From a virus: a stretch of 64,000 nt of DNA. Under the pieces are notes generated by a model that was given only the letters and a program-made list of their open reading frames with translations, did not search any database and had not been told where the DNA came from. This document shows, piece after piece, positions 2,525 to 36,900 of this stretch; position 1 is the first letter of the stretch; each line of letters starts with the position of its first letter. The stretch lies in the IMG/VR virus record IMGVR_UViG_3300024336_000001, positions 24,850 through 88,849 of that record; one strand, 5' to 3'. Both the position numbers and the translations under genes were made by a program.

Positions 2525-2758
2525 ATGTTAACCGCTTGTAAGGAAGTCATAAATACAATCGAAGCAGCTACAGTTACAAGTTTTCTTGTATTTGGCACTT
2601 CCTATATTTCCGAAACCGATCTTTTACAAGGCATTGAAGGCAAGAGGGACAGAACTATTGTAAAAGAAGCTATCAATGAATTGTTTTTTGTTTTCTATAC
2701 AAAGGTGAAAAAAGAAGCTGTCCGTTACCCTACTAGACCAGAATTTATAGTAAATTAA
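2525..2758 (+). CDS. Hypothetical protein next to repressor, 77 aa
   Basis: GGGGGTGGAGA precedes the ATG at 2525. The protein is predicted to be a mixed helix/strand, with a segment like a winged helix (SETDLLQGIEG...VKEAINELF). Its 3' end overlaps the convergent repressor gene by 14 bases, so transcription of one could interfere with the other. A DNA-binding role is possible but unproven. Confidence 0.6.
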   Translation: MLTACKEVINTIEAATVTSFLVFGTSYISETDLLQGIEGKRDRTIVKEAINELFFVFYTKVKKEAVRYPTRPEFIVN

Positions 2759-3284
2759 ACACCAGGTTTAAAACGCCCTCGATTTTTTCGGGCTTATCTT
2801 TAAGTTTATCAATGATTTTGTACATAGCTACTTTCTCTCGCTCTTCTAGCTGCGTAAGACTTATATTGGCCTGAATTGCAGCAGGCGTAACCAAGTGATC
2901 TCTTAAATCAAGAGTTATAAACCCTTTTAGCTCGTTTTCAAAAAAGCTATCCAAAATTTCATCTTTTGCTGTAGATGTTAAAAAGTGGTATTTCCAGTAA
3001 TTTTTATTTAAGTGCGCAGATATTTCTTCTATGTACTTAAGTAGCCCAGGCTCTTTGTTTCTTTCTTCGAAAGCAGCCAGAGCAAAATCATAGGCTTCTT
3101 CATCTGTTAAATTAAGAAGTTTAGCCAACGTCCGAACTTTATCTACTGGTGGAGCGATATGTTTGCCTGTTTCTATGTTTGAGATATAGCAGCGAGCAGA
3201 AATGTTCCCCAGCCCATCTAGCAAGCTTTGTTGGGTCATTTTCTTTTCTTTTCTATGTTTAGCGAGTAATTCAGCAAAGCTCAT
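2745..3284 (-). CDS. XRE-family repressor (CI-like)
   Basis: A helix-turn-helix of the XRE/Cro type occupies about residues 5-60 (FAELLAKHRKEKKMTQQSL, then SNIETGK, then LAKLLNLTDEEA). A 100-residue helical C-terminal part follows, likely for dimerisation. No LexA-type Ser-Lys protease signature is seen, so RecA-driven self-cleavage is not supported. The promoter side of the gene carries a cluster of five 17-bp operator-like repeats, which suggests self-regulation. Most likely the lysogeny repressor or another switch regulator. Confidence 0.8.
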   Translation of the reverse strand: MSFAELLAKHRKEKKMTQQSLLDGLGNISARCYISNIETGKHIAPPVDKVRTLAKLLNLTDEEAYDFALAAFEERNKEPGLLKYIEEISAHLNKNYWKYHFLTSTAKDEILDSFFENELKGFITLDLRDHLVTPAAIQANISLTQLEEREKVAMYKIIDKLKDKPEKIEGVLNLVFNLL

Positions 3285-3325: not shown

Positions 3326-3494
3326 TATATATACTCAGTATACCCATATCTATATACTAGCGCAGTAGACAAAAGTATACAGCGGCAGTATACTTGAATA
3401 TAGAGCAAGGAAAGAGAACGCCTAATTATGGAGCTAATAAGCAAGGTGATAACGGTTACATATACTAGCTCAGTATATATGACAGCTTAGTAGA
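3326..3494. promoter_or_regulatory. Cluster of five operator-like 17-bp repeats
   Basis: Imperfect copies of TATACTAGCKCAGTATA lie at 3326-3342, 3353-3369, 3376-3392, 3461-3477 and, weakly, 3478-3494. The 3330-3342 part is a perfect palindrome around one base, and 3373-3395 forms AAGTATAC-N7-GTATACTT. The dyad form and position between two leftward XRE genes fit binding by a dimeric HTH protein, most simply the product of 2745-3284. Confidence 0.7.
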
Positions 3495-4267: not shown

Positions 4268-4283
4268 GTTTGATGCGTCAAAC
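4268..4283. promoter_or_regulatory. Palindromic motif site 1 (TTTGATNNNYCAAA)
   Basis: GTTTGATGCGTCAAAC sits 33 bases before the start of the gene at 4316. The arms GTTTGA/TCAAAC are perfect. The same motif recurs at 11079, 13845 and 17775, always in an intergenic region close to a gene start. A TATAAT (4262-4267, inside ATATAATG) abuts the site, so a bound protein would block that promoter. Confidence 0.65.
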
Positions 4284-4315: not shown

Positions 4316-4825
4316 ATGAAAGAAATAAAAACAGACAACATACAAATTATTCAATATAAGAACGGGAAGCAACATAGTTTAAAAGATGAAATGGTGCGGA
4401 TGTTCCATTTTGAAAAACGAGATTTTAAAAATGCCCTCCGTTATTCCCATGAATACATTGTGGCTTGTCTTGAGATATCAAACAACCCTGAATATGCTGT
4501 AGGTATAAACACCTGGTATTTTCGTGATAATAAGAACGAGCGATTATTTCCAACCTGGAAAAGAGCCTTAATTTCTCAGCCAGTGATACCAGCCTCAATA
4601 ATTCAAAGACGCAGGCTTAACAAATACCTTCAGAACAGAATAAAGGAGCTGAAAGACACCAGTTCTTTAGACACTTTTTATGTCTTTGCTCCTTATAAAA
4701 TTGATATAATGAAAAGAGTCCTTAACACAATTTATTCGGAATATGTTTATTATCGGGATAAAGTGGGTAATACATCTATATTGAGTAGAGATGAGAGGAG
4801 ATATATATGCCACAAAAGAAAATGA
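4316..4825 (+). CDS. Hypothetical protein, 169 aa
   Basis: The ATG at 4316 lies behind AGTAAGGGA and downstream of palindrome site 1. The protein is basic and rich in aromatic residues (HEYIVACLEIS, NTWYFRDN, FYVFAPYKID), with no family I recognise. It overlaps the next small gene by 19 bases, implying co-translation. It is a candidate member of the TTTGATNNNYCAAA regulon. Confidence 0.65.
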   Translation: MKEIKTDNIQIIQYKNGKQHSLKDEMVRMFHFEKRDFKNALRYSHEYIVACLEISNNPEYAVGINTWYFRDNKNERLFPTWKRALISQPVIPASIIQRRRLNKYLQNRIKELKDTSSLDTFYVFAPYKIDIMKRVLNTIYSEYVYYRDKVGNTSILSRDERRYICHKRK

Positions 4826-5260: not shown

Positions 5261-6967
5261 ATGAATAAATTAAAAAAGAAAACAAAAGAAAAAGAAACGC
5301 TTCTCTCTGCTAATTTTATCACAAAAGATGGTTTAGAACACAAAGAACTAGACCTTCCTGAAAGTCACCCTGGAAAACTATCCCTCGGAAGAAATGTAAC
5401 CGATACAAATATTATCCCGCATGAAGACAGATTAGATCTTGATGGCGAAGATGTTGCTGGTTTATTCCCAGAGGTAAAAAAAGAAGTATTTGAACCAACG
5501 ACCGGTATTCAAGATAAAGATAAAAATTATATTCTTGAAAACGAAATCACAAATCTAGTTGAGGATGTCCAAAAAACAAAAGAAACCCCACAAATTATCA
5601 ATGCTAACGACCTTGTTTTTACTGTTACCAAAAAAGAACCAGGAGATAGGGTTGAGATTATCCAGGATTACCCGGCTAAAGTTTTTCCAGAGCCTAAAAA
5701 TAAAGCTTTTATTGAAAAAATAGACGAAATATGGAGCGAGACATCTTCAGGGATGTCTTTTCATCATCTCTACACAGAAGACTTTGCGCTAGATGGCCGA
5801 GAAATACACATTAAAGGGCAAAAGGTTCTCAATTTTGGGTCTTGTAGTTATTTGGGCTTAGAGCACCACCCAAAGCTAAAAGAAGGAGCGATAGAGGCAA
5901 TACAGAGATACGGCACTCAATACTCTTCGTCCATTACTTATCTGTCATTAGGTTTATATAAAGAACTGAAAGAAAAATACACAAAAATATTTGGAAGTAA
6001 CGTTGTGTTAGCCCCAACGACAACCTTGGCTCATGCATCTAGCATTCCATTGATAGCTGATGAACACGACGTTTTTTTGTTAGACCAACAAGTTCACAAC
6101 TCTGTACAAATGGGCACTCAATTAGCCGCAGCGCAGGGGACACCTTTTTTTATAATGCCTCACAACAATATCGAGGCTCTTGAAGATAAAATCCAGAAAT
6201 TGAAAAATGAACATAGAAAAATTTGGTATTTTCTTGATGGGGTTTACTCAATGTATGGAGATCTAGCCCCTATTGCCGAGCTAGAAAAGTTGCGAGATAA
6301 ATATGACAATTTATATCTTTATATAGATGATGCTCACGGAACAAGCTGGCGAGGAAAAAATGGGAAAGGTCATGCGTTAAGCTGCCTGAAAAGCTTAAGG
6401 AAGACCATAGTCGCTGTTTCTAACAACAAGGCGTTTGCTGGGGCCGGAGGATCCTTGGTTATAGAAGATCCAGAACTTTATAATGTTATAAGCAATTTTG
6501 GTCAGACAATGATTTTTGGGGGACCAATTCAACCGGCCAACTTAGGAGCATGTTTGGCTTCTGCCGATATTCATTTATCAAAAGAAATTTATGTGCTTCA
6601 AGATAAGCTTAGATCAAAGATTGATCTAAGAAATAGATTGTTTGATAAATATGATATTCCGGTTTTTGGAGATCGCCAAACCCCCATATCCTTTATTTGT
6701 GTGGGATCCCCAAAATCCCTTGGGATCCTTTTTCATAAATTGTTTGAAGATGGCATTTACACTAATTGTGCAGTATATCCGGCTGTATCCAAACAAAAAA
6801 GTGGTCTTAGGACAACAATGACTAATCATCTTACAGATGCGGACATTGAAAAATTTGTTGAGCGAGTTGCCTATCATTTGCCCAAAATTCTTCAAGAAGA
6901 AGGGTCCTCGATAGAAAAAATTAAAAAGAGGTTTAAAATAAAAGAGAGAAACCTTGTAAAGGTTTAA
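5261..6967 (+). CDS. Alpha-oxoamine synthase, CqsA/LqsA/BioF/SPT superfamily
   Basis: PLP-dependent fold-type I enzyme that condenses an acyl-CoA with an amino-acid-derived substrate. The catalytic core spans about residues 150-560: FGSCSYLGL opening, His279 in QVHNSV stacking over PLP, DGVYSMYGDLAPI, Asp356 in YIDDAHG, and the Schiff-base Lys390 in NNKAFAGAGG. All key residues are present. It is 568 aa against about 390-420 for the family because of a charged, probably disordered N-terminal extension of about 150 aa. It lies two bases before a membrane histidine kinase, with a receiver protein nearby, which favours an autoinducer synthase of the CqsA/LqsA kind over biotin (BioF), threonine (Kbl) or sphingolipid (SPT) roles, for which no partner genes are seen. 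Superfamily call is firm; the signalling role is inferred. Confidence 0.88.
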   Translation: MNKLKKKTKEKETLLSANFITKDGLEHKELDLPESHPGKLSLGRNVTDTNIIPHEDRLDLDGEDVAGLFPEVKKEVFEPTTGIQDKDKNYILENEITNLVEDVQKTKETPQIINANDLVFTVTKKEPGDRVEIIQDYPAKVFPEPKNKAFIEKIDEIWSETSSGMSFHHLYTEDFALDGREIHIKGQKVLNFGSCSYLGLEHHPKLKEGAIEAIQRYGTQYSSSITYLSLGLYKELKEKYTKIFGSNVVLAPTTTLAHASSIPLIADEHDVFLLDQQVHNSVQMGTQLAAAQGTPFFIMPHNNIEALEDKIQKLKNEHRKIWYFLDGVYSMYGDLAPIAELEKLRDKYDNLYLYIDDAHGTSWRGKNGKGHALSCLKSLRKTIVAVSNNKAFAGAGGSLVIEDPELYNVISNFGQTMIFGGPIQPANLGACLASADIHLSKEIYVLQDKLRSKIDLRNRLFDKYDIPVFGDRQTPISFICVGSPKSLGILFHKLFEDGIYTNCAVYPAVSKQKSGLRTTMTNHLTDADIEKFVERVAYHLPKILQEEGSSIEKIKKRFKIKERNLVKV

Positions 6968-6969
6968 CC

Positions 6970-9837
6970 TTGGATATATTTTACTGGTCTTCGATAGCTG
7001 CTTTTTTTCTCACATTATTTTTGGCCGTCTTTGTGTATTTTGAGGACAAGCAACGAAGCACCCACAAAGTATTAGGCTTGTTTGTTTTAATCTTGGCCGT
7101 AGGCATCTTTGGTGATTTTTATTACAGAATTCCAATAATTAACTCTTCTTTTATACCCAATATATTGCGGGGCATTTTCGCCATTGTGCCGTTTTCTCCG
7201 GCTTTATGGGTACATTTTATTTTCTTGTTTACAAAAATTAAACCAAAAAAACACGTACTCTCGACTATATATTTAAGTTCATTGGTGTTATCGGTGTTAA
7301 ATGTGCTATTTCCTAAATTTATTTTTAGTGAAGTTTCTTTAACGGCGACACATCTTCTTAAGACAACCCCGTCCATAGGATTTTATTTATTTGCTATATA
7401 TATCTTCGGGGGGGCAACTCTAAGTCTGTATTTTGTTATTAAAGCAAGAAAGCGCAGCGCAGGGCATTTTAGAGAGCAACTAAACTATTATTTGTTTGCA
7501 AACGTTATTATTTTTATAGCTGTAATATTGTATGCAATAGCGGTTGGTTTCTTTCCGGGCTTTCCTCGCCTGGATAATGTGTTTTTAAGTATATATGTTT
7601 TAATTATTGTTTATAGTATTACTAGAAGAGAGCTATTAAACATAAAACTCCTTGTTGGCCGTCTGCTCACATATGGGCTATTAGTAGCGGGGGTCGGCTT
7701 TGTGATGTATATGTCTCGTTTTTCCGTAGACAGTTTCTATTTATCTTCGCTCGTGGCTTTCGTTATCTCTACTTGGCTGGCATCATTTATTTTTATCAAG
7801 GGCAAAAGAAGCTTAATTAATAGAGTATTTGCAGGGTTTTTATTAACGCTATCTGCCGGAATATTTGGCGATTACTTTTATTATACGCCAGTGGTTAACA
7901 ATATTGCTCCAAGAGAATTGTTAAGAGCAGCGTATGTAATAACACCTTTTTCTGCATCTACGTTATTACATTTTATATTCTTATTCACAAAGACTAAGCC
8001 TCCCAAGGGTATAGTCCCATTATTATATACTGGATCTATATTATTGATGGTATTGAACTTAGCGATACCAGCGTTTTATTTTCAATCAGCCACAGTTAAA
8101 ACGTTAGGGGAGTTGAGCACGACAACGACACTGGCTTATCACGTCTTTAGTAGTTATAACCTGATGGCAGTATTGCTTAGTTTTGTGTTTGTAATACGCC
8201 GAAGAAGAAAAAGCAGAGGGAAATTAAGGGCGCAGATGAATTATTATCTTTTTGCTGCGGTTAGTATTATATGTGCAGCACTTTTATATTCTATTGCAAT
8301 GGGAATTTCTCCAAATACTCCAAGATTAGATAATATATTCTTGGTTCTTTATGTTTGTACCATTGCATATAGCATTACTAAAAGTGAACTATTTCAAATT
8401 CAGATTGTTATTAGTCGAACGCTTGCTTATGGGTTAACCTATGCCTCTGTAATATTTATTTTTTTGCTAATGAACCTACATATTAAAGAGCCGAATATAA
8501 AAGTATGGTTTAATCTGTTTTATTGTTTACTGTGTGCATTGGTAGCTCCTAGAGTAAGAGGAAAGCTTCAGACTGGATTAGAAGAGAAATTTGTGTCAGA
8601 CGATTATGAGCCTAATAAGGTTATAGATGAAATAACAAAAGATATTACCGGTGTTTATGAAAGAGAAGGTATTTTTAAAATTTTAATCAAAGCCATAGAA
8701 GCAATTATCAAAACCAAAGATAGTCATTTATTAGTTTTGGAAAAAGGGACTGAAAGAACCAACAATATTTTTCATTTATATGACAAGGATATGATAGAAG
8801 TTGCAAGTATGGACCCAGATAATCCGGTTATCAAATATTTTCATAATAAATATAAGCCAATAAAATTCAGTAAGCTAGATAAGGAAGCGCAGGGCGAACT
8901 AAAAAAATATTATATTAATAGATTTAGCATTCTAATTCCCTTATACTCTCCTCCCAATTTATTTGACGGGCTGCTTATTGTTGGACAAAAAGTATCAGAG
9001 GCCGCTTACACGAATAAAGATATAGGTTTGTTTCAAACCATTATAAATTTTACAAAAGTGATTTTAGATAGACTCCGGCCATATGAGGAAATCAAGCAGG
9101 AGTACGCAGAAGATAGAGAGCGAGTATATGAAGCTAAAATGATGGAAATTCAAGCCAAAAAAAATGAGGACTTCGCTTATACTATTCAAGAGTATAACCA
9201 CGAGATCAGAACCCCTTTAACTATGCTAATTGGAGCTATTCACACCTTACTTTATAAAATTAAAGGACAAAAGCCTATTTCGAACTTAAAAGAAGAGTTA
9301 GATGATATGCTAAAAAATGGAGAGAGGATGAACGATATAGTTGGCACAACATTAAGGCTTACTCCAGGCAGCATTAGTGAAAGAAAGCGGAAAAGAGATC
9401 CCCAAGGAATAAATGAAATTATCCAGCAAGCACTTGATCTATATACGTTTGTACACGAGGTTAAGGTGATTAAGAATTTTAATGAAGAAGAGATATATGT
9501 ATTCGGTGTTAATAATGATATTGAACGCATTTTCATAAATCTAATTCGTAATGCCGATGAAGCAATGCCTAAAGGAGGAAAGCTTCAAATTAAAACCTCC
9601 CTGCAAAATCAAGAAGCTTGCATTGAGATAAAAGACACCGGAATAGGAATCCCGGAAGAAGATCAACAAAAAGTATGGGAAATACATCGCTCAAGACATG
9701 TAACAAAAGGCAGAGGCTTAGGTTTGTCGATAGTTCATAGATTAGTGACTGAGCACCAAGCCAGGATCACTTTAAATAGTATAGAAGGGGAAGGCACAAC
9801 TTTTACTGTGCTTTTTCCGACAGTGGAGGCTATTTAG
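6970..9837 (+). CDS. Membrane sensor histidine kinase with duplicated 7TM-type domain
   Basis: Start is TTG at 6970, two bases after the synthase stop, with AAAGG upstream. Two homologous multi-pass units occupy residues 1-252 and 253-505; matching blocks are GIFGDFYYRIP/GIFGDYFYYTP and HFIFLFTK in both, offset by 252 residues. They resemble the N-terminal 7TM region of bacterial histidine kinases. A GAF-like domain follows (about 555-700, with LIPLYSP...GLLIVGQK), then HisKA with His744 in NHEIRTPL, and an HATPase domain with Asn861 (RNADEAM), Asp889 (DTGIGIP) and GRGLGLS at 914-920. All kinase motifs are intact, so it should autophosphorylate. The likely ligand is a small hydrophobic molecule; the adjacent synthase suggests its product. 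Confidence 0.9.
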   Translation: MDIFYWSSIAAFFLTLFLAVFVYFEDKQRSTHKVLGLFVLILAVGIFGDFYYRIPIINSSFIPNILRGIFAIVPFSPALWVHFIFLFTKIKPKKHVLSTIYLSSLVLSVLNVLFPKFIFSEVSLTATHLLKTTPSIGFYLFAIYIFGGATLSLYFVIKARKRSAGHFREQLNYYLFANVIIFIAVILYAIAVGFFPGFPRLDNVFLSIYVLIIVYSITRRELLNIKLLVGRLLTYGLLVAGVGFVMYMSRFSVDSFYLSSLVAFVISTWLASFIFIKGKRSLINRVFAGFLLTLSAGIFGDYFYYTPVVNNIAPRELLRAAYVITPFSASTLLHFIFLFTKTKPPKGIVPLLYTGSILLMVLNLAIPAFYFQSATVKTLGELSTTTTLAYHVFSSYNLMAVLLSFVFVIRRRRKSRGKLRAQMNYYLFAAVSIICAALLYSIAMGISPNTPRLDNIFLVLYVCTIAYSITKSELFQIQIVISRTLAYGLTYASVIFIFLLMNLHIKEPNIKVWFNLFYCLLCALVAPRVRGKLQTGLEEKFVSDDYEPNKVIDEITKDITGVYEREGIFKILIKAIEAIIKTKDSHLLVLEKGTERTNNIFHLYDKDMIEVASMDPDNPVIKYFHNKYKPIKFSKLDKEAQGELKKYYINRFSILIPLYSPPNLFDGLLIVGQKVSEAAYTNKDIGLFQTIINFTKVILDRLRPYEEIKQEYAEDRERVYEAKMMEIQAKKNEDFAYTIQEYNHEIRTPLTMLIGAIHTLLYKIKGQKPISNLKEELDDMLKNGERMNDIVGTTLRLTPGSISERKRKRDPQGINEIIQQALDLYTFVHEVKVIKNFNEEEIYVFGVNNDIERIFINLIRNADEAMPKGGKLQIKTSLQNQEACIEIKDTGIGIPEEDQQKVWEIHRSRHVTKGRGLGLSIVHRLVTEHQARITLNSIEGEGTTFTVLFPTVEAI

Positions 9838-10072
9838 CCTCTGTAAGCGTCTGGGGTTTATTGATATATATAGACACTGGTTTATTTGAAGTAGGTCCAA
9901 ATAAAGCTTGCTTGCTTGATATCATGCTTTGAAAATTATCATCAGTATATTTGTGGCTATAGGGCACATATTTTTTTGCTAAATCGACAAATAGTTCCCC
10001 AGCCCTTTCAAAATTATCAACTATAATATTTTCAGCTAGACTAAAGTTTTCAATTACAATAAGGTTCCACAT
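9830..10072 (-). CDS. Small hypothetical protein of the signalling island, 80 aa
   Basis: The ATG at 10072 follows CTGGGGA on the minus strand. It is the last gene of the leftward operon (membrane protein, response regulator, this protein) and its end overlaps the histidine kinase end by eight bases. The product has a helical N-terminal half (NFERAGELFVDLAKKYV) and no recognised domain. It could be an output or phosphotransfer accessory, but no conserved His context supports that. Confidence 0.5.
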   Translation of the reverse strand: MWNLIVIENFSLAENIIVDNFERAGELFVDLAKKYVPYSHKYTDDNFQSMISSKQALFGPTSNKPVSIYINKPQTLTEAK

Positions 10073-10114
10073 AGATATTCCCCAGGGCAGTTAAGATTAG
10101 CTGCTATCTCTTGA

Positions 10115-10612
10115 TTATTTAGATTCGTCTTCTAGTTCTTTGCGTCTGACATAAGATTTTTCTCTTAGATCATCTTTCATGTATTCACCATGCTTTTTGA
10201 TGACAACCTTTTCTAAAACATCTACTAATTCGTCTGGGTTAAATGGTTTTTTAAGATACCCTACTGCACCCCCCACAATGGGGCTAGTAGCTTTAGCCCA
10301 TTTTTTTTGATCTTCGTAAGCACTTAGTATAATAACACTCATTTCTTCATAAAAGCCTTCAGATTTGCGCCACTCCCTGAGCATATCAAGCCCATCCAGG
10401 TCAGGCATTTTTATGTCTAAAATTACACAATCAATTTTATTTGGTCCTATACCAACCCAGGTTTTATGTTTTTTTAATGTTTTCAAGCCTTCTTTTCCGC
10501 CGTTAGCGGTAATGATATTCCATCCTAAACGATCCTCAACAGTATTTTTTATCAAGTTTGTAACGCCCACCTCATCATCAATAGCTAAAATTAAAGGTTT
10601 ACCTTTTTTCAT
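10115..10612 (-). CDS. Single-domain response regulator (CheY-like receiver)
   Basis: A complete receiver domain covers residues about 6-140: acidic pair Asp12-Asp13, phospho-acceptor Asp66 in VILDIKMPDLDG, Ser97 at the switch position (IILSAYED), and Lys122 in YLKKPF. A charged 25-residue tail follows, with no DNA-binding or enzymatic output domain. AAGGAGG lies upstream. It is convergent with the kinase gene and the most likely phospho-acceptor for it. Without an output domain it must act by protein contact or as a phosphate sink. Confidence 0.92.
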   Translation of the reverse strand: MKKGKPLILAIDDEVGVTNLIKNTVEDRLGWNIITANGGKEGLKTLKKHKTWVGIGPNKIDCVILDIKMPDLDGLDMLREWRKSEGFYEEMSVIILSAYEDQKKWAKATSPIVGGAVGYLKKPFNPDELVDVLEKVVIKKHGEYMKDDLREKSYVRRKELEDESK

Positions 10613-11024
10613 TTATGCCTCCTTTTTCAAATTTATTGTCCCAATAATCAAGACAATGCCCAAGAACATGATAAGGGCCTAAAAAGAAACCTTTAATTGG
10701 AAAATACACAATTAAAGGAAGATAGATAGCGAAAACAGTAAAAGCCTCTACAAACGGATGAGAGGGCTTTCTTTGACCGGCTTTATACTCTTTTTCAACC
10801 CGTGTTTTTTCGTATTCATTGCCAATGGCGTTTAGATAATAAGCCATATGTTTGTGGAAACTAGCTTGAGGATATGATTTTCTGTTCATAAGAGAATCAC
10901 GTATACAGCGAGCCATGTTTTTGTACCAAGAAACAAAGCCACCTAAAAAACCAATTATCGCTCCGTAAACTATTGACCATAACAATACGATTAAAAAGTA
11001 AATGTAAAATAAGATTTTTTTCAT
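10599..11024 (-). CDS. Small inner-membrane protein, 141 aa
   Basis: The best start is the ATG at 11024, preceded by GGAAGG; an ATG at 11039 lacks a site. An N-terminal hydrophobic helix (ILFYIYFLIVLLWSIVYGA) is followed by a second short one (AIIGFLGGFV), a basic cytoplasmic-type loop, and a third near residues 98-120 (FAIYLPLIVYFPIKGFF). It overlaps the response regulator start by 14 bases, so the two are translationally coupled and perhaps interact. No family recognised. Its promoter faces palindrome site 2. Confidence 0.7.
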   Translation of the reverse strand: MKKILFYIYFLIVLLWSIVYGAIIGFLGGFVSWYKNMARCIRDSLMNRKSYPQASFHKHMAYYLNAIGNEYEKTRVEKEYKAGQRKPSHPFVEAFTVFAIYLPLIVYFPIKGFFLGPYHVLGHCLDYWDNKFEKGGINEKR

Positions 11025-11078
11025 ATAATAGCCTTCCATAATGACATCATTATATCACTATTTTAGCATTGTATCACT

Positions 11079-11094
11079 GTTTGATGCATCAAAC
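11079..11094. promoter_or_regulatory. Palindromic motif site 2, perfect 16-bp dyad
   Basis: GTTTGATGCATCAAAC is a perfect palindrome placed between the divergent response-regulator operon (start 11024) and the rightward HU-like operon (start 11214). A protein bound here could control both. TATAAT-like boxes follow at 11111-11117 and near 11192. It is the best copy of the four-site TTTGATNNNYCAAA set. Confidence 0.7.
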
Positions 11095-11213
11095 AAATAA
11101 ACAATATGTTGTATAATGTAGAAATGTAAAATAACCATATGGCATAAGGCTATAAGTAACATTACATTCGGCTTATAATGCAATGTATTCTATAATAATG
11201 AGGGAGAATAAAA

Positions 11214-11480
11214 ATGAATAATGAATTTGGAATCAGCGATCTTCAAATAAAACTAATGGCAAATAAGCTGGGGTATCCAGGAGGGCTATCTGAGCAGGAA
11301 TTAGCGGATATTAAGGTGGGGCTTATTGGAGAAATATTCAAAAAAAGGGAAGAGCTAGTATACCCTGTTATTAAATATGCCCTTGAGCTAAGGCTTAAGA
11401 AAAATAAAGGTGTAGTTCGTACAAGATGTTGTGAAAAAGATGCTGCGAAAATAAGGTGCTGTGATAAGAATGAAGACTAA
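11214..11480 (+). CDS. Hypothetical protein, 88 aa
   Basis: GAGGGAG precedes the ATG at 11214. The protein is helical, and the C-terminus contains two near-repeats, RTRCCEKDAAK and IRCCDKNED, giving two Cys-Cys pairs that could bind metal. The stop overlaps the HU-like gene. No family recognised. Confidence 0.6.
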   Translation: MNNEFGISDLQIKLMANKLGYPGGLSEQELADIKVGLIGEIFKKREELVYPVIKYALELRLKKNKGVVRTRCCEKDAAKIRCCDKNED

Positions 11481-11787
11481 GTATCTTAAAGATATCCTCA
11501 CAAGGATGTGCAGGCATCCTAAAAAATATCCATTAACAAACAGGTCTTCGGTTACAAATGCCCAAAGACTAGAAATAATTAAGGGGGTTTTCGATGAAAT
11601 GATAGAATGTTTATTAGAGGGGTGTAATTTTGAAATAAAGAATTTTGGGACAATAAAACGGAAAGAAAGACCAGGGAGAACTTATAGGAACCCCAAAACA
11701 GGTGATAAAATTAAAAAGGATCCGGCAACAACATTGAAGTTTAATATAGCAAAAAAGATGAGAGACAGGCTAAATGAGCAATCCTGA
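11470..11787 (+). CDS. HU/IHF-family DNA-binding protein
   Basis: The frame opens with GTG at 11461 and ATG at 11470; the latter is used here, giving 105 aa. The second half matches the HU/IHF signature: IKNFGTIKRKERPGRTYRNP, then KTGDKIKKDPATTLKF, then helix. These proteins bend or coat DNA; phage copies can help integrase complexes, replication or nucleoid remodelling. Position two genes before the integrase makes an intasome role plausible. The N-terminal helix pair is slightly longer than usual (about 90 aa). Confidence 0.82.
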   Translation: MKTKYLKDILTRMCRHPKKYPLTNRSSVTNAQRLEIIKGVFDEMIECLLEGCNFEIKNFGTIKRKERPGRTYRNPKTGDKIKKDPATTLKFNIAKKMRDRLNEQS

Positions 11788-11828
11788 ATATAATGAGCCA
11801 AAGCAAGGAAATAAGTTCAAAGAGGGAA

Positions 11829-12062
11829 ATGATGGGAGAAATGGATCAAAAAAGGATTATGAAAAAACTCGGAAGTAAAATTACTACTTTAAAGAAAAAG
11901 GAAGGGTTAGTTACTGAGGAATTAGCAAAGAAAATAGACGTAGCAAGAAGTACCTTATGGTGTATTGAGACGGGAAAAGTAGACCCTAAAATGAGCACAG
12001 TAGTAAAGATAGCAAAGTTTTTTGGTATGAGCATTTCGGAATTATTAGATTTTAATAAATAG
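11829..12062 (+). CDS. XRE-family transcriptional regulator
   Basis: The frame is open from an ATG at 11793, but GAGGG just upstream of the ATG at 11829 favours the shorter 77-aa form. The HTH is clear: ITTLKKKEGLVTEELAKKI, then RSTLWCIETGK, then VVKIAKFFGMSISELL. It lies directly upstream of the integrase promoter, which contains a 10-bp inverted repeat, so it may control integrase. It is the third XRE protein of the window. Confidence 0.8.
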   Translation: MMGEMDQKRIMKKLGSKITTLKKKEGLVTEELAKKIDVARSTLWCIETGKVDPKMSTVVKIAKFFGMSISELLDFNK

Positions 12063-12091: not shown

Positions 12092-12152
12092 TCTCGCATA
12101 AATAAATATATATACATTGACAAATACACTAATTATGCATTATTATGCGAGA
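12092..12152 (+). promoter_or_regulatory. Integrase promoter framed by a 10-bp inverted repeat
   Basis: TTGACA (12117-12122) and TATTAT (12141-12146) form a strong promoter with an 18-base spacer. TCTCGCATAA (12092-12101) and TTATGCGAGA (12143-12152) are perfect inverted repeats; the second overlaps the -10 box. The arrangement fits repression by looping or by a dimer at each arm, for example by the XRE protein just upstream or by the integrase itself. Confidence 0.6.
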
Positions 12153-12168
12153 AACAAGGAGGTTTAAA

Positions 12169-13239
12169 TTGAATACTGAATTAAAATTACATAATGATAT
12201 AGAAACAAGGATTGAAAAGTTACCTGAACACTATAAAAAGTTTTTTATATGGAAGCAGCCAAACAAATCTACAAGACGACATACGATCAAATCATATTTA
12301 TTGCATTTGAATAAAGTAGAAGATCTATTAGGGAAAAAGTTGATGGAGAAAAAGGGGGCAGCATATGTTTCTGTAACCAAAGATGAGTTGGTTCAACTAA
12401 AAGACACTCTATCACATAAGCTTAACCATAAACCTTCAAGCGTGAATGCTTATTTAGCTTCAATAAAATCTATTTTCAAATATTGGACACAAGAGTTGGA
12501 GATTGTAGAAAAATCCCCTATCCCGCTGGACTTTCAAGAAGAAGAACCATACGCAGAGAAGGAAATGTATATTACTGAAGAACATTTAAGGGAAATAAAT
12601 AATATATTAGATGAGCTGGTTAAGACAGTTACAACTAAAATACCGGCCAGCATGAATGTCACAAGCCTTTTCTTCCATGCTTTACAACGCAAGGCAATTA
12701 TTAGGTTAATGATTGATACAGGGGCTAGAGTTGGGGAAATTGCTGGAATTACTGCAAATGATTTTGACAGATACGAAATTATGATAGACAAGAGAAAGCA
12801 CAAACAATGGCAAGTGAAAATATATAATTCTAAAAAACGAGATGGATCTCCCTTAGCTCGCTGGCTACCTATATCAAAAGAAACAAAAAAAGCAGTGGAT
12901 GAAATGCTTTATCATGCTCAATTAAAAATAAAAAACGGGGAACTGCCTTTATCAACTGCAAACTTTAGTAAAGCCTTTCATAGAAAAAATAGATCTAGGG
13001 CAATTCAAACTTGGATTAACGAGATACAAAAAGACCTTAATAAAATGGGGTACAATATCCCGAAGCTGACACCCCATCATTTTAGACATCTGTTTGCTAC
13101 CAGACTAATTCTGGCAGGCGAAAACGATGCAACCGTACAGAAAATGTTAGGGCAAAAAAACATTCAAAGTATAATCAGGTATGTTAAAGCCAGCAACCAA
13201 ATGGCTGGAGCTGCCAGCTATAGAACCTTTGGTTTTTAA
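12169..13239 (+). CDS. int: Tyrosine recombinase (phage integrase)
   Basis: The start is taken as TTG at 12169, because AAGGAGG lies six bases upstream and the alternative ATG at 12145 falls inside the -10 box. A SAM-like core-binding domain (about 30-125) precedes the catalytic domain. Arg187 in GARVGEIAGI, His304-x-Arg306-His307 in HHFRH, and nucleophile Tyr338 in IIRYV are present. The position usually held by His or Trp after LG is Gln (LGQKNIQ), an accepted variant in some integrases. It supports a temperate, integrating life cycle. No attachment site could be defined. Confidence 0.92.
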   Translation: MNTELKLHNDIETRIEKLPEHYKKFFIWKQPNKSTRRHTIKSYLLHLNKVEDLLGKKLMEKKGAAYVSVTKDELVQLKDTLSHKLNHKPSSVNAYLASIKSIFKYWTQELEIVEKSPIPLDFQEEEPYAEKEMYITEEHLREINNILDELVKTVTTKIPASMNVTSLFFHALQRKAIIRLMIDTGARVGEIAGITANDFDRYEIMIDKRKHKQWQVKIYNSKKRDGSPLARWLPISKETKKAVDEMLYHAQLKIKNGELPLSTANFSKAFHRKNRSRAIQTWINEIQKDLNKMGYNIPKLTPHHFRHLFATRLILAGENDATVQKMLGQKNIQSIIRYVKASNQMAGAASYRTFGF

Positions 13240-27983: not shown

Positions 27984-30900
27984 CTAAATACTCCCTGAAA
28001 CTACGGTGACGGACAAAACATCGGTTGCTCCTGATGTTTGCCTTATGTCCAGATAATTGCCACTATATTGAAGGTCAAAAGGACTACTGCCCGTGCTACT
28101 CAAAACAGCTTCATTCCAATATATACCCTTTCCTGAATAAGAATAGGCAATAATCGCTGAATGCCCATTTGTGCTTAAATTAGCAAAAACAAGCCCTGAT
28201 TCTCTTGAACCATTAAAAGCCTTCAGTGTATACCAAACATTGTTTGATGCGCTTTCAATTCTCTTAGTTGTAAAGTTCCCTCTCCCATATAAAGATAATC
28301 GGCTATCATTTTGATATAAATCTAAAAAACCTTCTTGCGTTAAACACATTTTCTCAGAAATGGCATCTGAGGATCTGGTATAAAATGAAAGATCTCCTGA
28401 TACACCAGAATCTCGCCGCTTCCCTTTAATCATTGCCGACAAATGGTCATCGTCAGACTCGTAATTGCTGGTTGTTGTATGAAATCTTAGCTCTGGCCCT
28501 GCACCATCCGATGTAGATGAATGTGAAAGTACCAGCAAATTAGCACTAGAGTCTTTAATAATACATTTTGTATCAATAACTGTAGTGCCTATCCCTACTT
28601 GACCATCTCCCGTAAACCTTATTGCCTCTGCCCCACCGGGCTTGAAAATTATATGGCCAGTTGAATTCCAGCCTGCTGTAATTGTTAGCTCGTTTGATTG
28701 TCCCACTCTTAAAACATCTATTCCGCTGTGATTAATTCCAAACCTATTCCCAGAGTTGTAATTATTTTCTATTGTTGTTTTATAGGCACTTTCTTCTGTT
28801 CCTAAGACTATTTGGGTTGTTGCATGATATTTACTTATTTCAAGGCCGTTAGTCGCTGCCGGAGCCGTAGTACCAATACCAACTTTCCCATCATTTTTAA
28901 TTACAAATTTTGTTGAGTGGCTGTCACCTGGTGTATAAAACTGGAAGTCGTATGTATTAGAATATGTGTTTGGAATCGCTTTAATCCCCGCCGTAACTGT
29001 TCCTGCCATATTTGACTGAAACTTAATCTCACAAGGATAAACATCCAAATTAGTAGTATTCATATTATGTAACAACAACACAGTTCCAGCCGTGCTATTT
29101 GATTTGTATAGTTCTAATAATTGGCTTGGGGAAGATGTGCCAATCCCAACTCGTCCGCTCGAATTTTCACTCAGTATTTTTCGGCCATCGGTATCACTTG
29201 TAGGCGCACTTCCTTTTAGCCTAAGATCCGCATTGTCATCTAACCAAATTCTATGATTAGCTGTATGGGTGGCTAATCCTAAAGACACTCTCTCTGCATC
29301 AGAACCTAACTCAAGATTTATGAAACCACCACCGTTACCTGTCCCGTGCGCCCAAATGATTCGCTTATCGTCCCCTGTATCCTTTACGTCTAATTTATAA
29401 AGAGGGTCCCCATCATCAAGCCCTATGCCAGTATTCCCACTGCTATTGATAGTTAATCGATGCTCTCCCGCATCACTGTCATAAAAACTTAAAAAACCTC
29501 CGCCTATTGTCCAAGAACTATCAGTTGAAATCATGTTGTATTTTCTGCCGCCGGTCCCGCTCGACCAAACGCCAACCCAGGGAGAAGCTGTCTGGCTAAG
29601 AATTGCTCCAGCCACTTCTAATTTTTGACCTGGGTTAGTTGCTCCTATCCCAACGTTTCCGTCACTTGCTATTCTTATGCGCTCCGCACTATTAACATGA
29701 AACACCATATAATCCACAGGTGTGCCACCTGTAAAATGGTAATAGCCTATCATTCCTGGAGATCCATCTTTATCGCTAAAATGTATTCTATTTCCAATGC
29801 TTGTAGGTGAAGTGGCTGAAGCAAATAAGTTTATTTGCGATGCGTTATATGCCTCAGCGTGTGTACCTTCTATTGTTAGTGTGGATGTATCTCCATAAGA
29901 GCCATATATATGAAGTCTTGTAGAGGGGCTGCTAGTCCCAATCCCAACCTCTCCCGTAGGAGTAACCGCAAGTTTGCTTACCCCGCCTGTTGTTAAATTT
30001 CTTATTTCAAAATTATCACCACTCGCCCCATTAATTCGCATTCCCCAATTAATCGCATCATTTCCTATTCCTATGCCTATGATTCCATTAGCTGTGGTCC
30101 CATTATGTACATAGAGTGGGTACTGATTATCTGTGGCTACTTCAACATGCAGCAACTCCGTTGGCTGATCTGTACCTATTCCAACTCGCCCAGTAGCGTT
30201 TTTTATTGTAACGGCCCGACTCCAAGCTGTTGAATCGTGTCTCCATAAAGCTAAATCTGAGTTTGCTTGTAATTGCCATGCCATTTTTTTATTTGAATCA
30301 GAGTTATAAAACTCTACCCCTGATACGCCTGTCGAAGAGTTTGTGTTTTCTAATGTGAGATAAGAATAATCAGCGTGTTTTATATGAAATATTGTACTAG
30401 GACTAGATATGCCAATCCCCCATTTCCCATCACTAGTTATCCTTGCCGCTTCATTGCTCGTAAGTAACCCATTAAGAGAAAAAATAATAGGGATCGCACT
30501 TTCTGTTGCCAGCACTAAGCCTGATGTTGACGCTTGCGCTGATACAAAACATCGTCCCGTTAAAATTGTGTGTGTAGAGTGCGCTGTTCCTGCCACACCA
30601 ATGTTACAACCGCCTCCGGTATCATTTAATGTTCCCCAATAAACTAATCCAGCACTGTTTATGTTTTCAGCCCTTGCTCTCAAGGAGCTTGCTGTTGATT
30701 TATAGACGTGAAGCTCATAGTCTGGGTTTGTTGTGCCAAGACCGACATTGCCACCATTGTAATAGATTTCACTCCCATTAGCAGACCAGTAGGTATCACT
30801 TGAGGTTCCCACAGGCACTCCATTAATCGTGATGCTATCAGCCTCGATATTTCCAACAACTTCAAGCGGGTGTCCTGGTGAAGTTGTACCAATGCCAACA

Positions 30901-33900
30901 TTTCCATTATTTCTTATATATACTTTAGGCGTTGCAGATGATGCGCTATTTCCTGGGGCATAAAGTGCAAGGAAATCGTAGTTATTTTCCCACCCTGTTT
31001 TAATAACTTTGTTGTAAGCAGCGGTTGGGTTAATGATTGCACTACCATAGTTGAATCCTATGTCACCCCTAACATCAAGCTTAACAACAGGTGATGCTGT
31101 GCCAATACCAACGCTGCCCTCCTCATCTATGGTCATTCTCTTTAAAAGGCCAGCCGAGTGGTTATATGTCCAAAAATCTAAGGCCGTATGGTTATTGGTC
31201 GATGGGTTCAATCTGTATGCGTTTATCCTGGCATAGCCTCCAGCCCAAGTGATTCCCCCCATGCTGCTGGGGTTAGATGTTGTCCCCCCTGACCAGCTAT
31301 AATCGATATTAATCGTGTCATGAACGGCTTCCCCATATTCAAAATAATCTTTTATATGTAATCGAGTAGACGGAGAACCTGTTCCTATACCAACATCACC
31401 TGAAAAATCAATCATAAAGGGAATTTCTGATTTAGATTCGTTTTTTAAATAAAAATTATCATTGCCTGCGTCCATCCCCAATGTATAAGCGCATTGACCA
31501 TTTTGGATCAATAAGATTCGACAAGCTTCCCCGTCTTCAGTAGCTATACGAAGTGGCCCTTGGTTATACCCAACATTAACGGCACTTCCAATATGTAACA
31601 AAGCTTCGGGTGTCGTGTTTCCTATGCCTATATTTCCATCACCATCAACAACAAAATCAAATCTGGCATCATCATTGTTATAAAGAATAAAGCCCAATCC
31701 ATCCACACCCAATTTAAAAGAATCTCTGCCCCCGTCCGTAGACTCTATAAAAAGATAGGTGCTTGAAGAGGAACTTAAGTGTAAAAGACTTTGTGGGTCT
31801 GAGACTCCTATTCCAACGTCTCCGGCATTGTAATAAGCTTTTGGTCCATTAACTGACCAAACATTAGAGGCTGTTGTTAAATTAGTTTCTGCCCCTGCTG
31901 AACTCTTGTAGTATAAAAAACCATCCGAAGCTTTTACATACAGCTTCCCATATCCTGCCGAAACCCCCGGCGGCGTTACCATCTCATCAAATGAAACAGC
32001 TCCCTCTACAGTAAGTTTTTCGTTAATGCTGCTTGTACCAACTCCAAAATTACCGCTCTTAACATAGCTATCTCCACCTGGATTAAAAGCTATTCGAGCA
32101 GTCGCCCCGTCATAAAGATAAAGCTTTATAGCTGAAACGCCATCATACAATGAAACAGCTCCGGCATTGGGAGCAAGATGTAAGTTGCCAGCCACGGTTT
32201 TTATGGTTGGCGTACCCCCGCCAGACAAAGCAATATTTCCCTCAACACCCAATGCTTCACTTGGGATGCTTGTGCCTATCCCGACTCTCCCCTCCCCAGT
32301 TATTCTCATTTTTTCGGTTCCCGTGCGTACACTACGATCATCACTGGTGTAAAAGCGAATATACTTTGTTGTATTATAACTATTCAAACCCCCGCCAATA
32401 AATAAATGGTTTTCGACAGAATTAGAGTCAAAAAACAACCCCAGGTAGCCTTCGGATTCTGCTGCTGAATTATACTGAGAACCAATGATAGCTCCAAATT
32501 TTTGAGTATCATTGTCTTCGTTAGAAGATAATCTTAGCTCATAGTTAACATGAAAAGTGTCCAGTGGGTTTTCTATTCCTATACCCACCTTGCCATCAGT
32601 TCTAAACGTTGCCCAGGTTGAAGCTTTATCGGTAGACCCTATTTTCAATACCGAGTCGGTTCTTCCCCAAATAGCACCTGCACTATGAAATATAATCGTA
32701 GCCGCATTTGCATCAGACCCGACTCCTGCTGCGGTAATGCGTAAAGTAGCTCCTCCTGAAACGACTGGGTTTTGTGTTAGCTTCACGGTTTTGTCATCAC
32801 CGAAAACTTCCAATATTTCATCTGGGCTGGTAGTTCCTATCCCAATTTTTCCAGTTGGATCTACAGTTAAAGCTCGAATTGGAGCTAAGTTAACTCCTGA
32901 GCTTTGGGTTAGAATATTAAAGCGGCTCTCACTTGCCTCAAACCCAAAAACATTTGCATAAGAAGACGTTACAGTTTGAGTTGCGTAGGTAGTTGCATCT
33001 CCTAATGTTCCGTTAAGAAATATAAATTGTTTTGCCCCGGAACCAGAGTAAACCTGAGCAATATTTACCTGCCTGTTTGTTGCGCCGGTTGGTGAATAAC
33101 CCCCAATAAACATATAGTGAACTTGATCGTATCCTTCATTTTTAACCATTATTCGGCCAGTTTTACACAAGATATTCCCGGATACATCAAGCTTTTCTGT
33201 CGGGTTGCTTTCAGCGATACCAACTTTCCCGGTATTAAATCGAAAACCCGTATCCGCAGTAAAATCCAAATACCCATCGTTTAAAGATCCGATATGAATA
33301 GCTGAATCTCTGAATTTAATCGTATTATTACTTGTTATCGTTCCGCCAGCTAAAGGAAGAAACCCTGAAATTTGGTGGGTATGGCTTGTCGCTGTCAAAG
33401 CATTTGTTGATCCTGTATCACAAGTGCTTGGGGTTCCCATAGTTATAGATCCTGAGCTTGTGATAGTAGAAAAATCCATCCCGTTTCCGGCAGAAACACT
33501 CAAAACTCCATCATCCGGGCTTAAAAGAGACTGCCAATCGGACATAGCCGTATTATTGCCAGTTGAATTTATATAGGTTTGGTCTTCGTCTGTCCTTACA
33601 CAGACATCACCTTTTTGTACTGTTAATGCCAGTTGCGCCGTTTCGTTGGCTGCTACATACGTTTCCGTAATAGCCAAAGCCGGTAATACAGAATTTTCAA
33701 GCTTTCCGCTTCCATTAAGGACAGGGATATTTCCTGATCCGGTTCCTGTGTCTTTTATGGCCGCTGTGCCTAATCCCAAAGTGCCTCTAGCTGTGCTAAC
33801 GTTTGCATCATCTAGCAATGTCCTGGCAAAAGAAGATAAGCTCGTTACTGCATAGGTATCATACGCCGTTGTATAAATCATTTTATCTGTATCAGTAACC

Positions 33901-36900
33901 AGATCTGCTATAGAAGCTAGTCCTACATCATAACTTTGGATATCAACATCGATCTCCAAGCCCAAATTATTTCTGGCCGCCTCTGCGCTACTTGCGCCTG
34001 TGCCACCATTAACAATTTCAAGGTCTGCTCCACTCCAGTTATTATTGTTAATTGTATTTAATGTAGACAGGCTTCCAAAGCCCGCCTCAGTTCTTGTTTG
34101 ATTAATCCATTTACTAGAGCCAAAATCATATGCAAGCAATTCATTGTCTGCCGGGGAAGAAATGACCGTATCATCTAAACCGGCTAAGGTTCCTGCTGGC
34201 AAGTCACCCCAAGCAACAACACCCAAGCCGTTCGTTTTTAAAACCTGTTCATCAGAGCCATCAACTGAAGGTAAAACATATGCCCCTATTTTCACGGATC
34301 CATTTACGTGTAATTTTTCTGTTGGGGTATCTATTCCAATTCCTAGTCCGGTGCTGGTCAATTTCATTCTGGTGCTTGTAAGGCTCTGGTCAGTAAAATA
34401 AATATTGATTCCGCCTAAATAGATGTTGTTCGTGTCTGAATAAACAACCGCACCTTTTCCGCTTGCAATTCCTAGCCGCACCTTATTTGCTCCTGAGCCA
34501 GCCATAACCCTAACAAAAGAATCCGCTGCGCTTGTATCGATATCTAATTTTTCACTTGGACCTGTTGTCCCAATCCCAACGTTCCCATCCCAGCTTACAG
34601 TTAATTGTTTTTGATTAGATGTCATTAAACTTAGATTCGTGGCATTTGCATAAGCCGAAGCAGAATAAGCAACCATTCCTCCCATTTTGCTAGACTCTCC
34701 TGCGGATCCCTCTGTTGCTAGTTTCAATAAGAAACCAAGCTCTCTTGTGCCAGAACTACTGCTTGCGCCCCTGTGTCCGATTACAACTGCTTCTGAATAT
34801 GCGCCTGTACTTGTCCCGGTTGATACCTCCATTTTTGGAGTAACCCCAGCAAACATACCCGCACTTCCGTTCATTGTCATTGGGTTACTTACACCAATCC
34901 CAACCTCTCCTGAACTTAATATTGTCATTCGCTCAACTAAATCAGCATAAAGATACGTGCCTGCGTTTTGTACCAAAAAGGCAAGGCGAGGGTTTAAAGG
35001 ACTTGGATTGCTTGCCATTGTAATAAGCCTAAGTTCAGCCGAATACTCTGATATTGAAGCTCCTGTGGTATTACTAATATTTATAGATGTGTATTCATTT
35101 TGAAGTATTGATTGGCTTTTTACCCGTAACCCAATAGTGTCTTTGTCTGTTGAAACATCAAGTTTATAATTTGGATTAGTGTCCATAATCCCGACATTGC
35201 CACCGCTTAATATTCTCATTGCCTCCAACGCAGTAGCCACATCATTCACATAAAACCTTAAAGCATGACTCCCCTTTAACATCTCATTTGCCGGATTAAA
35301 TATCATATACCTTGAGTTTGTTGTAGCCTCTATCTTTAGGTTAGGGTCGTTGGCTTTGATATGCAGTAAAGAATCTGGTGTCGATGTTCCAATGCCCATC
35401 TCTCCTGAGCTTAATATTGTCATCCGTTCTACAATGTCCGCATATTCGTGTGTATATTTATTTTGCAGCAAAAAAGCCAAGCGAGGATTAAAAAAATTAG
35501 GGCTAGACTCTGTGGTAATCAGCCTTAGCTCGCCTGAATATGACGAAGGGTTAGAGCTTGAATTGCTTATATTAATCGCCGTGTAATTTCCCGCTATTCC
35601 GCAGTTGTTTCTTATTCTAAACGCAATGGTGCTAGGCTCTGACATAATATCAAATAAATAATAAGGATCAGCCTTTATCCCAAATTTATTATCGACTCTC
35701 GTTTGATCGTAATTATGCTTAAGCCTATAGACAAAAGCTCCGCCGGAATTGGGCGTTGAGCCAATCTGAAACTCGGCTTTATTACTATCAATAGTCTCAC
35801 TTTTTAATATAAGATTAGGGTTCCCGGTAGCCTGCATTTTAAAATCAATGAATGGCGAACTTCCCCTTAATCTTAAGTTTCCCTCAACATCTACTTTTTG
35901 TTCTGGTGAAGTAACACCAACACCTAAAGTCCCATCTACAGTAAAACCGCTACTATTAAGTTTTGCTCTTTTAATACCTCCTGTCCCAAAAACAATATTT
36001 TGGTTCATATCAGCATCAGTGCTATAACCAGACACATCTATATAAGATTGATATACAGTATCCAACCCTCCGCCAGCAGAAAGACGTAAAAACCCATCAT
36101 TTTGTGCTAATGAATTTTCTCTGTAGCCTCTAACTTCGCCATCAATAACGGTTGTACTTAAAGATGGCCGAGCCATTGCTTCTCCTGTAGAACCTGGTAA
36201 AGCAAGTGAATTTGTATAAATCTGTGGTATGGGCTGTGTTTCTTCTCCAATTAAATTTCTAAAAAAGGGATCATCTTTTGCATTAAGAAATGATCTTTTG
36301 TCCGCAACATTCGTAATATTTGTTGCATCTGTTGTTGCCACACAAATAGGATAACAACGGGTCAAAAAGCCAGTAGTGTTTGAAGCTAAGACCCCTGAAC
36401 CATTGATAAAAACATATGAGGTGGACAACGCAGGCAAGGTTATCGTCTGGTCATTATGTGAATAAAAGTTGGAACCATAAATAACCCTGCCGTTGTTGAC
36501 TGTAAGATTTAAAGTTGGCGGTGCAACTACTGATGGTCTGTAATCCTGCGAAGTAGTAAACGGCTCCGATGTAAAAGAAGCCCGCTCATATTCAATTTTG
36601 TATTCGTGTTCAGATACAAAAAAATTCTGTTTATTTTGTTGAGAAGAGGCACTGTTAATGTGCTTAATTCCTTCTCCTTGAGGAATGCCCGTATTTTTAA
36701 TGGTTATATATAAATATCCATTGTAGTAAATCCAAGCCCACTGCTCATTTAAAATTTCTGCCGAAGTTAATGAAAGCATATTAACCACCGAAGTTAGTGG
36801 TTGTATAAAATACAATCTAGGTGAAATTGTTGGAGCTACAGTTGTTTTGATTCGAAGCCAATATTTTGTAACAATATTTACTGTGTCAGTTGTAAAATCG

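Follow-up and report, generated by a model that had tools for sequence, protein, structure and literature searches.

A phage-borne alpha-oxoamine synthase adjoining a double-sensor histidine kinase: a candidate small-molecule signalling module

Introduction

Signalling based on alpha-oxoamine synthases (AOSs) is represented by the CqsA/CqsS and LqsA/LqsS/LqsR systems (PMC3376566). In these alpha-hydroxyketone quorum-sensing systems, found in Vibrio and Legionella respectively, a synthase of the AOS fold, a multipass membrane histidine kinase (HK) and a receiver are encoded in one small locus. Pairs of cqsA and cqsS have also been annotated in green sulfur bacteria (PMC10158934). With regard to phages, complete LuxI/LuxR systems that control lysogeny have already been reported in Phaeobacter prophages (PMC13345283), and LuxI/LuxR, VqmA of phage VP882, arbitrium and the phage agr sets all tie communication or signal sensing to lysogeny. 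These systems rely on acyl-homoserine lactones, peptides or host signals and on other types of receptor, and among the known phage communication systems compared here none was found to combine an AOS with a histidine kinase. The openly accessible literature likewise yielded no paper on such a pair in a phage.

The locus analysed here also brings together a synthase of the AOS fold, a multipass membrane HK and a receiver, but it differs from the CqsA and LqsA systems in that its synthase belongs to another AOS clade, its sensor has no detectable similarity to theirs, and it is carried by a phage. Should the pair work as proposed below, phages would be communicating by a class of signal that they are not known to use, and an unrecognised group of synthase–kinase systems, open to direct testing, would exist among the bacterial relatives. 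The repeated occurrence of two-component genes next to members of this AOS clade is in itself, the phage aside, a concrete and testable lead.

The phage record and its genome

The window, meaning the whole stretch of DNA analysed, is 64,000 nucleotides long and corresponds to bases 24850-88849 of an 88,849-base IMG/VR virus record. The record is a genuine tailed phage, in which the island is situated between the terminase end and the part that carries the tail genes. The main landmarks are as follows.

L002:3405-5270, terminase large subunit, near one end of the 88.8-kb record
L002 10946-12645, ParA and ParB
11461-11787, + strand, HU-type DNA-binding protein
11793-12062, + strand, Cro/C1-type helix-turn-helix (HTH) protein
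12145-13239, + strand, tyrosine integrase
14-25 kb, primase/helicase, SNF2 helicase and PIF1-type helicase genes
Right part of the window, tape-measure, baseplate and tail-fibre genes

The phage looks temperate, since it encodes a tyrosine integrase, a Cro/C1-type HTH protein, an HU-type protein and ParA/ParB; the presence of ParA/ParB alongside an integrase in one phage might point to a plasmid-like prophage stage. Its terminase and integrase have only distant phage kin, at 22-24% and 22-25% identity, respectively. Shine-Dalgarno sequences precede 27 of 45 genes, against 12 expected, a frequency that would argue against a typical Bacteroidota host. A single ORF of 3187 aa (27984-37547) has several tail-fibre matches, including eight stretches that match phrog_18345.

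Organisation of the island

The island consists of two genes on the + strand that face a unit on the − strand.

5261-6967, + strand, PLP-dependent AOS of a PRK07505-related clade, 568 aa
6970-9837, + strand, membrane HK, 955 aa, TTG start
6994-7644, + strand, first HisKA_7TM sensor module of the HK, residues 9-225
7726-8406, + strand, second, tandem HisKA_7TM-like module, approximately residues 253-479
9196-9822, + strand, catalytic core of the HK, HisKA (His744) and HATPase_c
9830-10072, − strand, 80-aa ORF with no family match, between the HK and receiver genes
10115-10612, − strand, single-domain response-regulator receiver (RR) with no output domain, 165 aa, Asp66
10599-11039, − strand, 146-aa protein with two predicted transmembrane (TM) segments, first gene of the RR unit
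11040-11213, intergenic region between the RR unit (−) and the HU/HTH/integrase row (+)

The initial annotation had described an intact AOS two bases upstream of an intact multi-pass kinase, together with a convergent unit encoding a receiver protein, and this layout is borne out by the present analysis, with the genes for the AOS, the HK, the RR and the 146-aa protein all intact. The TTG start of the HK lies 2 nt past the AOS stop codon, and this spacing on one strand suggests that both genes are co-expressed. The convergent unit comprises two genes on the − strand, where the end of the gene for the 146-aa membrane protein overlaps the RR gene by 14 nt. The RR matches Response_reg in Pfam (E 1e-20), with D66 in the position previously assigned to it, and differs from LqsR in being a lone domain without the LqsR-type C-terminal part. 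The 80-aa ORF is an addition to the annotated gene content.

The synthase and its family

The AOS ORF matches Aminotran_1_2 in Pfam (E 1e-24), with a catalytic core at approximately residues 178-540. In the structure prediction, this core takes the AOS fold with high model confidence (pLDDT mostly above 80-90 between residues 170 and 560), and is preceded by an N-terminal extension of about 140-175 residues, newly recognised here, which is modelled as disordered up to residue 90. His279, Asp356 and the PLP lysine Lys390 are all present where the initial annotation had located them and, together with the fold, place the protein in the AOS superfamily. Across the family alignments H279, D356, K390 and R517 are invariant, while residue 225, a nearly invariant Arg in the clade described below, is Ile in the phage enzyme. 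By both sequence and fold, the closest solved structure is Alb29 of Streptomyces albogriseolus (PDB 8XHA/8I7U; 26-28% identity), an AOS from the natural-product pathway of albogrisin; the next solved structures are other AOSs.

Of all NCBIfam families, PRK07505 (NF005697) gives the best score for the phage AOS, with 272 bits, followed by BioF (174), SPT (164), Kbl (144) and HemA (107), all of them below their cut-offs. The PRK07505 score also falls short of its cut-off of 342 bits, as do those of two bacterial relatives, L010 and L031 (294 and 286 bits), so that the phage enzyme is of PRK07505 type in the wide sense of best family match and tree position beside rhizobial proteins, and lies outside the family in the strict sense of 342 bits. 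In the phylogenetic tree it is nested within a clade of Bacteroidota and Myxococcota proteins, here termed the AOS(-GNAT) clade, to which rhizobial PRK07505-type enzymes are the closest outside group. A long, fully supported branch separates the clade and these rhizobial enzymes from BioF, Kbl, HemA, SPT and CqsA; HemA forms a long branch, and no conclusion depends on its placement.

These scores and the tree position reject membership of SPT, BioF, Kbl or HemA, and the clustering within SPT or BioF that the initial annotation had named as contrary to its reading is thus not seen. Its suggestion of a CqsA/LqsA-like synthase, on the other hand, fails: the phage AOS reaches 88.5 bits on NF005526, the CqsA/LqsA family, against a cut-off of 428, and a grouping of the phage AOS with the CqsA-family proteins is rejected both by the tree and by the AU test (p-AU = 5e-6). 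On these sequence comparisons, membership of the Cqs/Lqs family is refuted.

The relatives in the clade, at 37-47% identity, come from Bacteroidota, Myxococcota, a few gammaproteobacterial MAGs and one cyanobacterial MAG. The clade is rare, being found in 9 of 395 Bacteroidota and 8 of 193 Myxococcota genomes. Most of its members have about 800-940 aa, and the one that was scanned is a fusion of an AOS with a GNAT domain (Acetyltransf_6); the remaining relatives are stand-alone enzymes of about 430 aa. The phage AOS shares with PRK07505/NF005697 and the clade its best score, 38-47% identity in the core, the motifs SCSYLGLE, DGVYSMYGD and YIDDAHG, its place in the tree and the frequent two-component neighbours. 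It differs from them in its sub-cut-off score, its long N-terminal extension, Ile225 and its phage location, and, unlike its nearest relatives, it has no GNAT domain; the parts of the record that were read contain no gene for a GNAT or DUF7793 partner. The best reading of these comparisons is that the enzyme belongs to an undescribed AOS family close to the uncharacterised PRK07505 family, a name that was not found in any paper in the openly accessible literature.

The double-sensor kinase

The HK matches HATPase_c (E 9e-23), HisKA (E 1.5e-7) and, in two stretches, HisKA_7TM (E 7e-17) in Pfam. His744 is correctly placed, and the N, G1 and G2 boxes are present, in line with the earlier view of an intact kinase. 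The two sensor modules, a duplication that had escaped the initial annotation, are 42% identical over 228 aa without gaps, an alignment that identifies the double sensor as an internal tandem duplication.

The CqsS-type sensing proposed earlier finds no support in the sensor, since either module, when compared with a profile of four CqsS-like sensors, gave an hhalign probability of 0.1%, and a homologous six-TM sensor of the CqsS/LqsS type is rejected on this basis. Profile similarity was also lacking between the HK sensor and the membrane sensors of the kinases that lie beside bacterial AOS relatives; because these sensors are dissimilar, the AOS–HK pairing does not appear to have been inherited as one unit from the sampled bacterial loci. 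A single-sequence model of the 7TM region (pLDDT 47) was too poor for use. An anti-phage defence system was considered and rejected, as the PADLOC models gave a weak partial match to SspG in the HK only (E 1e-3).

Two-component genes beside bacterial relatives

The neighbourhoods of AOS genes were searched with HMMs for kinase cores and receivers made in this analysis, counting any HK or RR within 1 kb. Such genes were found at 28 of 65 clade loci, in comparison with none of 22 BioF/Kbl/SPT/HemA-type loci and 4 of 6 CqsA-family loci, which served as the positive control. For the rhizobial sister clade the HMMs gave 0 of 36, although 1 of 36 is the fairer count since an annotated response regulator 111 bp from the AOS at one locus (L004) escaped the HMM. 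With relatedness ignored, the contrasts of 28/65 with 0/36 and with 0/22 correspond to Fisher p values of 3e-7 and 5e-5, respectively. HK/RR ORFs reach a density of 1.49 per 10 kb at distances of up to 2.5 kb from the AOS, compared with 0.20 at more than 4 kb. By parsimony, adjacency changes state 10 times on the tree and involves unlike kinases, which indicates that unlike kinases have joined this AOS family repeatedly; such repeated joining is predicted if synthases acquire sensors, but would also be seen if a biosynthetic gene had come under regulation several times. Under the grouping proposed here as an "AOS-associated two-component module", i.e. a clade AOS with an HK or receiver within 1 kb, the phage island is included, with its HK at 2 nt.

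A separate draw of 16 loci, taken from phylum-wide searches and not from the pattern search, contained six with an HK/RR within 2.5 kb, namely five myxococcotal loci and L120, where a membrane HK follows the AOS after about 170 bp on the same strand, as in the phage. The association is patchy, since the eight other Bacteroidota loci of the draw had no HK/RR; among the 65 relatives, 37 lack a two-component gene within 1 kb. A fixed arrangement was observed in a group of nine Bacteroidota loci (L017, L024, L026, L028, L029, L031, L032, L034 and L035), in which a stand-alone AOS is accompanied by an HK with several TM segments and by a single-domain receiver encoded on the other strand; these are the same three kinds of part as in the phage island, but in another order. 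Their kinases have 4-5 predicted TM segments, with a PAS domain in the one that was scanned, and many of the kinases beside bacterial relatives are predicted to be soluble PAS or hybrid kinases.

With regard to other neighbours, AOS copies in Sphingobacterium adjoin a TetR gene, RteC is found beside some other copies, and a gene for DUF7793 (SpoIIAA-like) is a conserved neighbour in 16 Bacteroidota loci (L014, L015, L018-L020, L025, L027, L040 and L121-L128) and adjoins many of the Bacteroidota fusions. On a Mesorhizobium plasmid (L008, 1474-7086), a rhizobial PRK07505-type AOS is separated by about 4 kb, including an annotated response regulator, from two genes, one for an acyl-homoserine-lactone synthase and one for a protein with an autoinducer-binding domain. 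In a Pseudomonadales MAG (L010, 3914-16272), genes for a TonB receptor, an ABC substrate-binding protein and a hybrid histidine kinase come after two paralogues of the AOS-GNAT type.

Phage origin of the island

The GC content of the island (0.34-0.37) is continuous with that of the surrounding phage genes, and the codon usage of the AOS and HK genes is as near to the phage genes as these are to one another, and unlike that of the bacterial homologues. Searches of IMG/VR and INPHARED with the AOS (a single query and two alignments), the HK, the terminase and the RR as queries gave no further viral copy of the AOS clade; since the IMG/VR scans rely on short conserved peptides, strongly diverged viral copies may have escaped them. 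In INPHARED the matches reach 23-29% identity and consist of BioF/Kbl-type genes and of fragments that carry no annotation, several of them clearly bacterial, and the AOS matched no PHROG family. Two circumstances had been held in advance to count against a phage system, absence of the pair from other phage genomes and a chimaeric assembly; the absence holds for the collections searched, whereas nothing points to a chimaera.

Proposed function and alternatives

Taking together the anatomy, clade, neighbourhood association and phage context described above, our main reading, to which we assign a probability of roughly 45%, is that the island is a phage-borne synthase–two-component module that makes and senses a small molecule, similar in working to CqsA/CqsS or LqsA/LqsS/LqsR but built from other families. 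The pair may make and read such a molecule because the bacterial AOS relatives also tend to adjoin sensor kinases. As for the product, ligand, phosphotransfer and effect on lysogeny, we infer the following course. In lysogens, the AOS would carry out the reaction typical of its superfamily, a decarboxylative condensation between an amino acid and an acyl thioester, and the resulting small molecule of aminoketone type would leave the cell unchanged or after processing by the host. At the membrane, the double-7TM HK would detect the product itself or a compound derived from it, and would hand a phosphate to the phage receiver or to a host receiver. As it has no DNA-binding domain, the receiver would act on phage or host regulation by protein contact, plausibly on lysogeny control, since the RR unit and the HTH/integrase genes point away from each other. 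A broader version, in which the phage reads its own AOS-derived signal through the double-7TM HK as part of an undescribed AOS/two-component signalling class of Bacteroidota, Myxococcota and others, is put forward more tentatively. Against the main reading, the sensor is unlike CqsS and the membrane kinases beside bacterial relatives, and soluble types are frequent among the bacterial kinases, so that a common mechanism would be conjectural. Further points against it are the 37 of 65 relatives that lack a two-component gene within 1 kb, the TetR and DUF7793 neighbours of some copies, the missing GNAT domain and the lack of a second viral example in the collections searched. The initial annotation had proposed that the phage makes and senses its own alpha-hydroxyketone-like signal, possibly to count lysogens or to control induction; the synthase-plus-sensor part of this idea gains from the repeated linkage of the clade to two-component genes, while a CqsA-type alpha-hydroxyketone is not supported and, with CqsA/LqsA membership and CqsS-type sensing unsupported, such a product is only one possibility. 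The quorum-sensing-like idea thus appears plausible and is strengthened by the comparative evidence.

The same genes could instead form a regulated auxiliary metabolic unit with no cell-to-cell signal, where the product of the AOS is a lipid or a metabolite, such as a long-chain aminoketone by which the host envelope is changed, and where the HK and receiver do no more than sense the envelope and regulate the pathway or the host. The AOS superfamily includes SPT and sulfonolipid enzymes (with solved structures of SPT and cysteate-C-fatty acyltransferase), the Acetyltransf_6 GNAT fused to the nearest relatives would suit N-acylation of a product, several neighbouring kinases look soluble, and TetR and RteC beside some copies are as expected of regulated biosynthesis. 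Nevertheless, the phage AOS falls outside the SPT clade and lacks the GNAT domain on which the N-acylation argument draws, and a DNA-binding output is absent from the receivers of the phage and of the stand-alone bacterial loci, which are therefore not simple transcriptional controllers of the AOS. We regard this explanation as rather unlikely, if deserving of attention.

Chance neighbourhood is improbable in our estimation: here the HK would serve lysis-lysogeny or host takeover and the AOS something else, as independent cargo. Unrelated cargo genes are common next to phage integrases, and the sensor type is unlike those beside the bacterial relatives, but the gap of only 2 nt between genes of the same strand and the recurrence of two-component genes beside the bacterial AOSs argue otherwise. 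That a bacterial fragment was misassembled or freshly inserted into the phage contig would account for the lack of other viral contigs or phage records with the AOS clade and for a multipass kinase, unusual on a phage; it seems highly improbable in view of the position between terminase and tail genes of the 88.8-kb record, the continuous GC and the phage-like codon usage. A canonical Cqs/Lqs alpha-hydroxyketone system carried by the phage has the same superfamily and a superficially similar set of synthase, membrane kinase and receiver genes (PMC3376566) in its favour, yet the family score, the AU test and a sensor unlike CqsS leave it next to no credence.

Candidate regulatory sequences

The intergenic region between the RR unit and the integrase row contains a perfect 16-bp palindrome, GTTTGATGCATCAAAC, at about 11079-11094 (TTTGATGCATCAAA at 11080-11093). 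Two near-copies of TTTGATGCATCAAA occur in the window, a count that was reached in 7 of 100 shuffles and is thus not clearly above chance. A promoter-like site on the − strand within 11040-11213 is a consensus match only, and such sites are overall not above shuffles. The copy of TTTGATGCATCAAA at 4269-4282, with one mismatch, lies upstream of the gene at 4316-4825, and might be a shared operator. Elsewhere in the window, repeated GTATAC/CAGTATAC dyads at 3336-3483, immediately upstream of an HTH gene (2745-3284, − strand), resemble the repressor operators of an immunity region.
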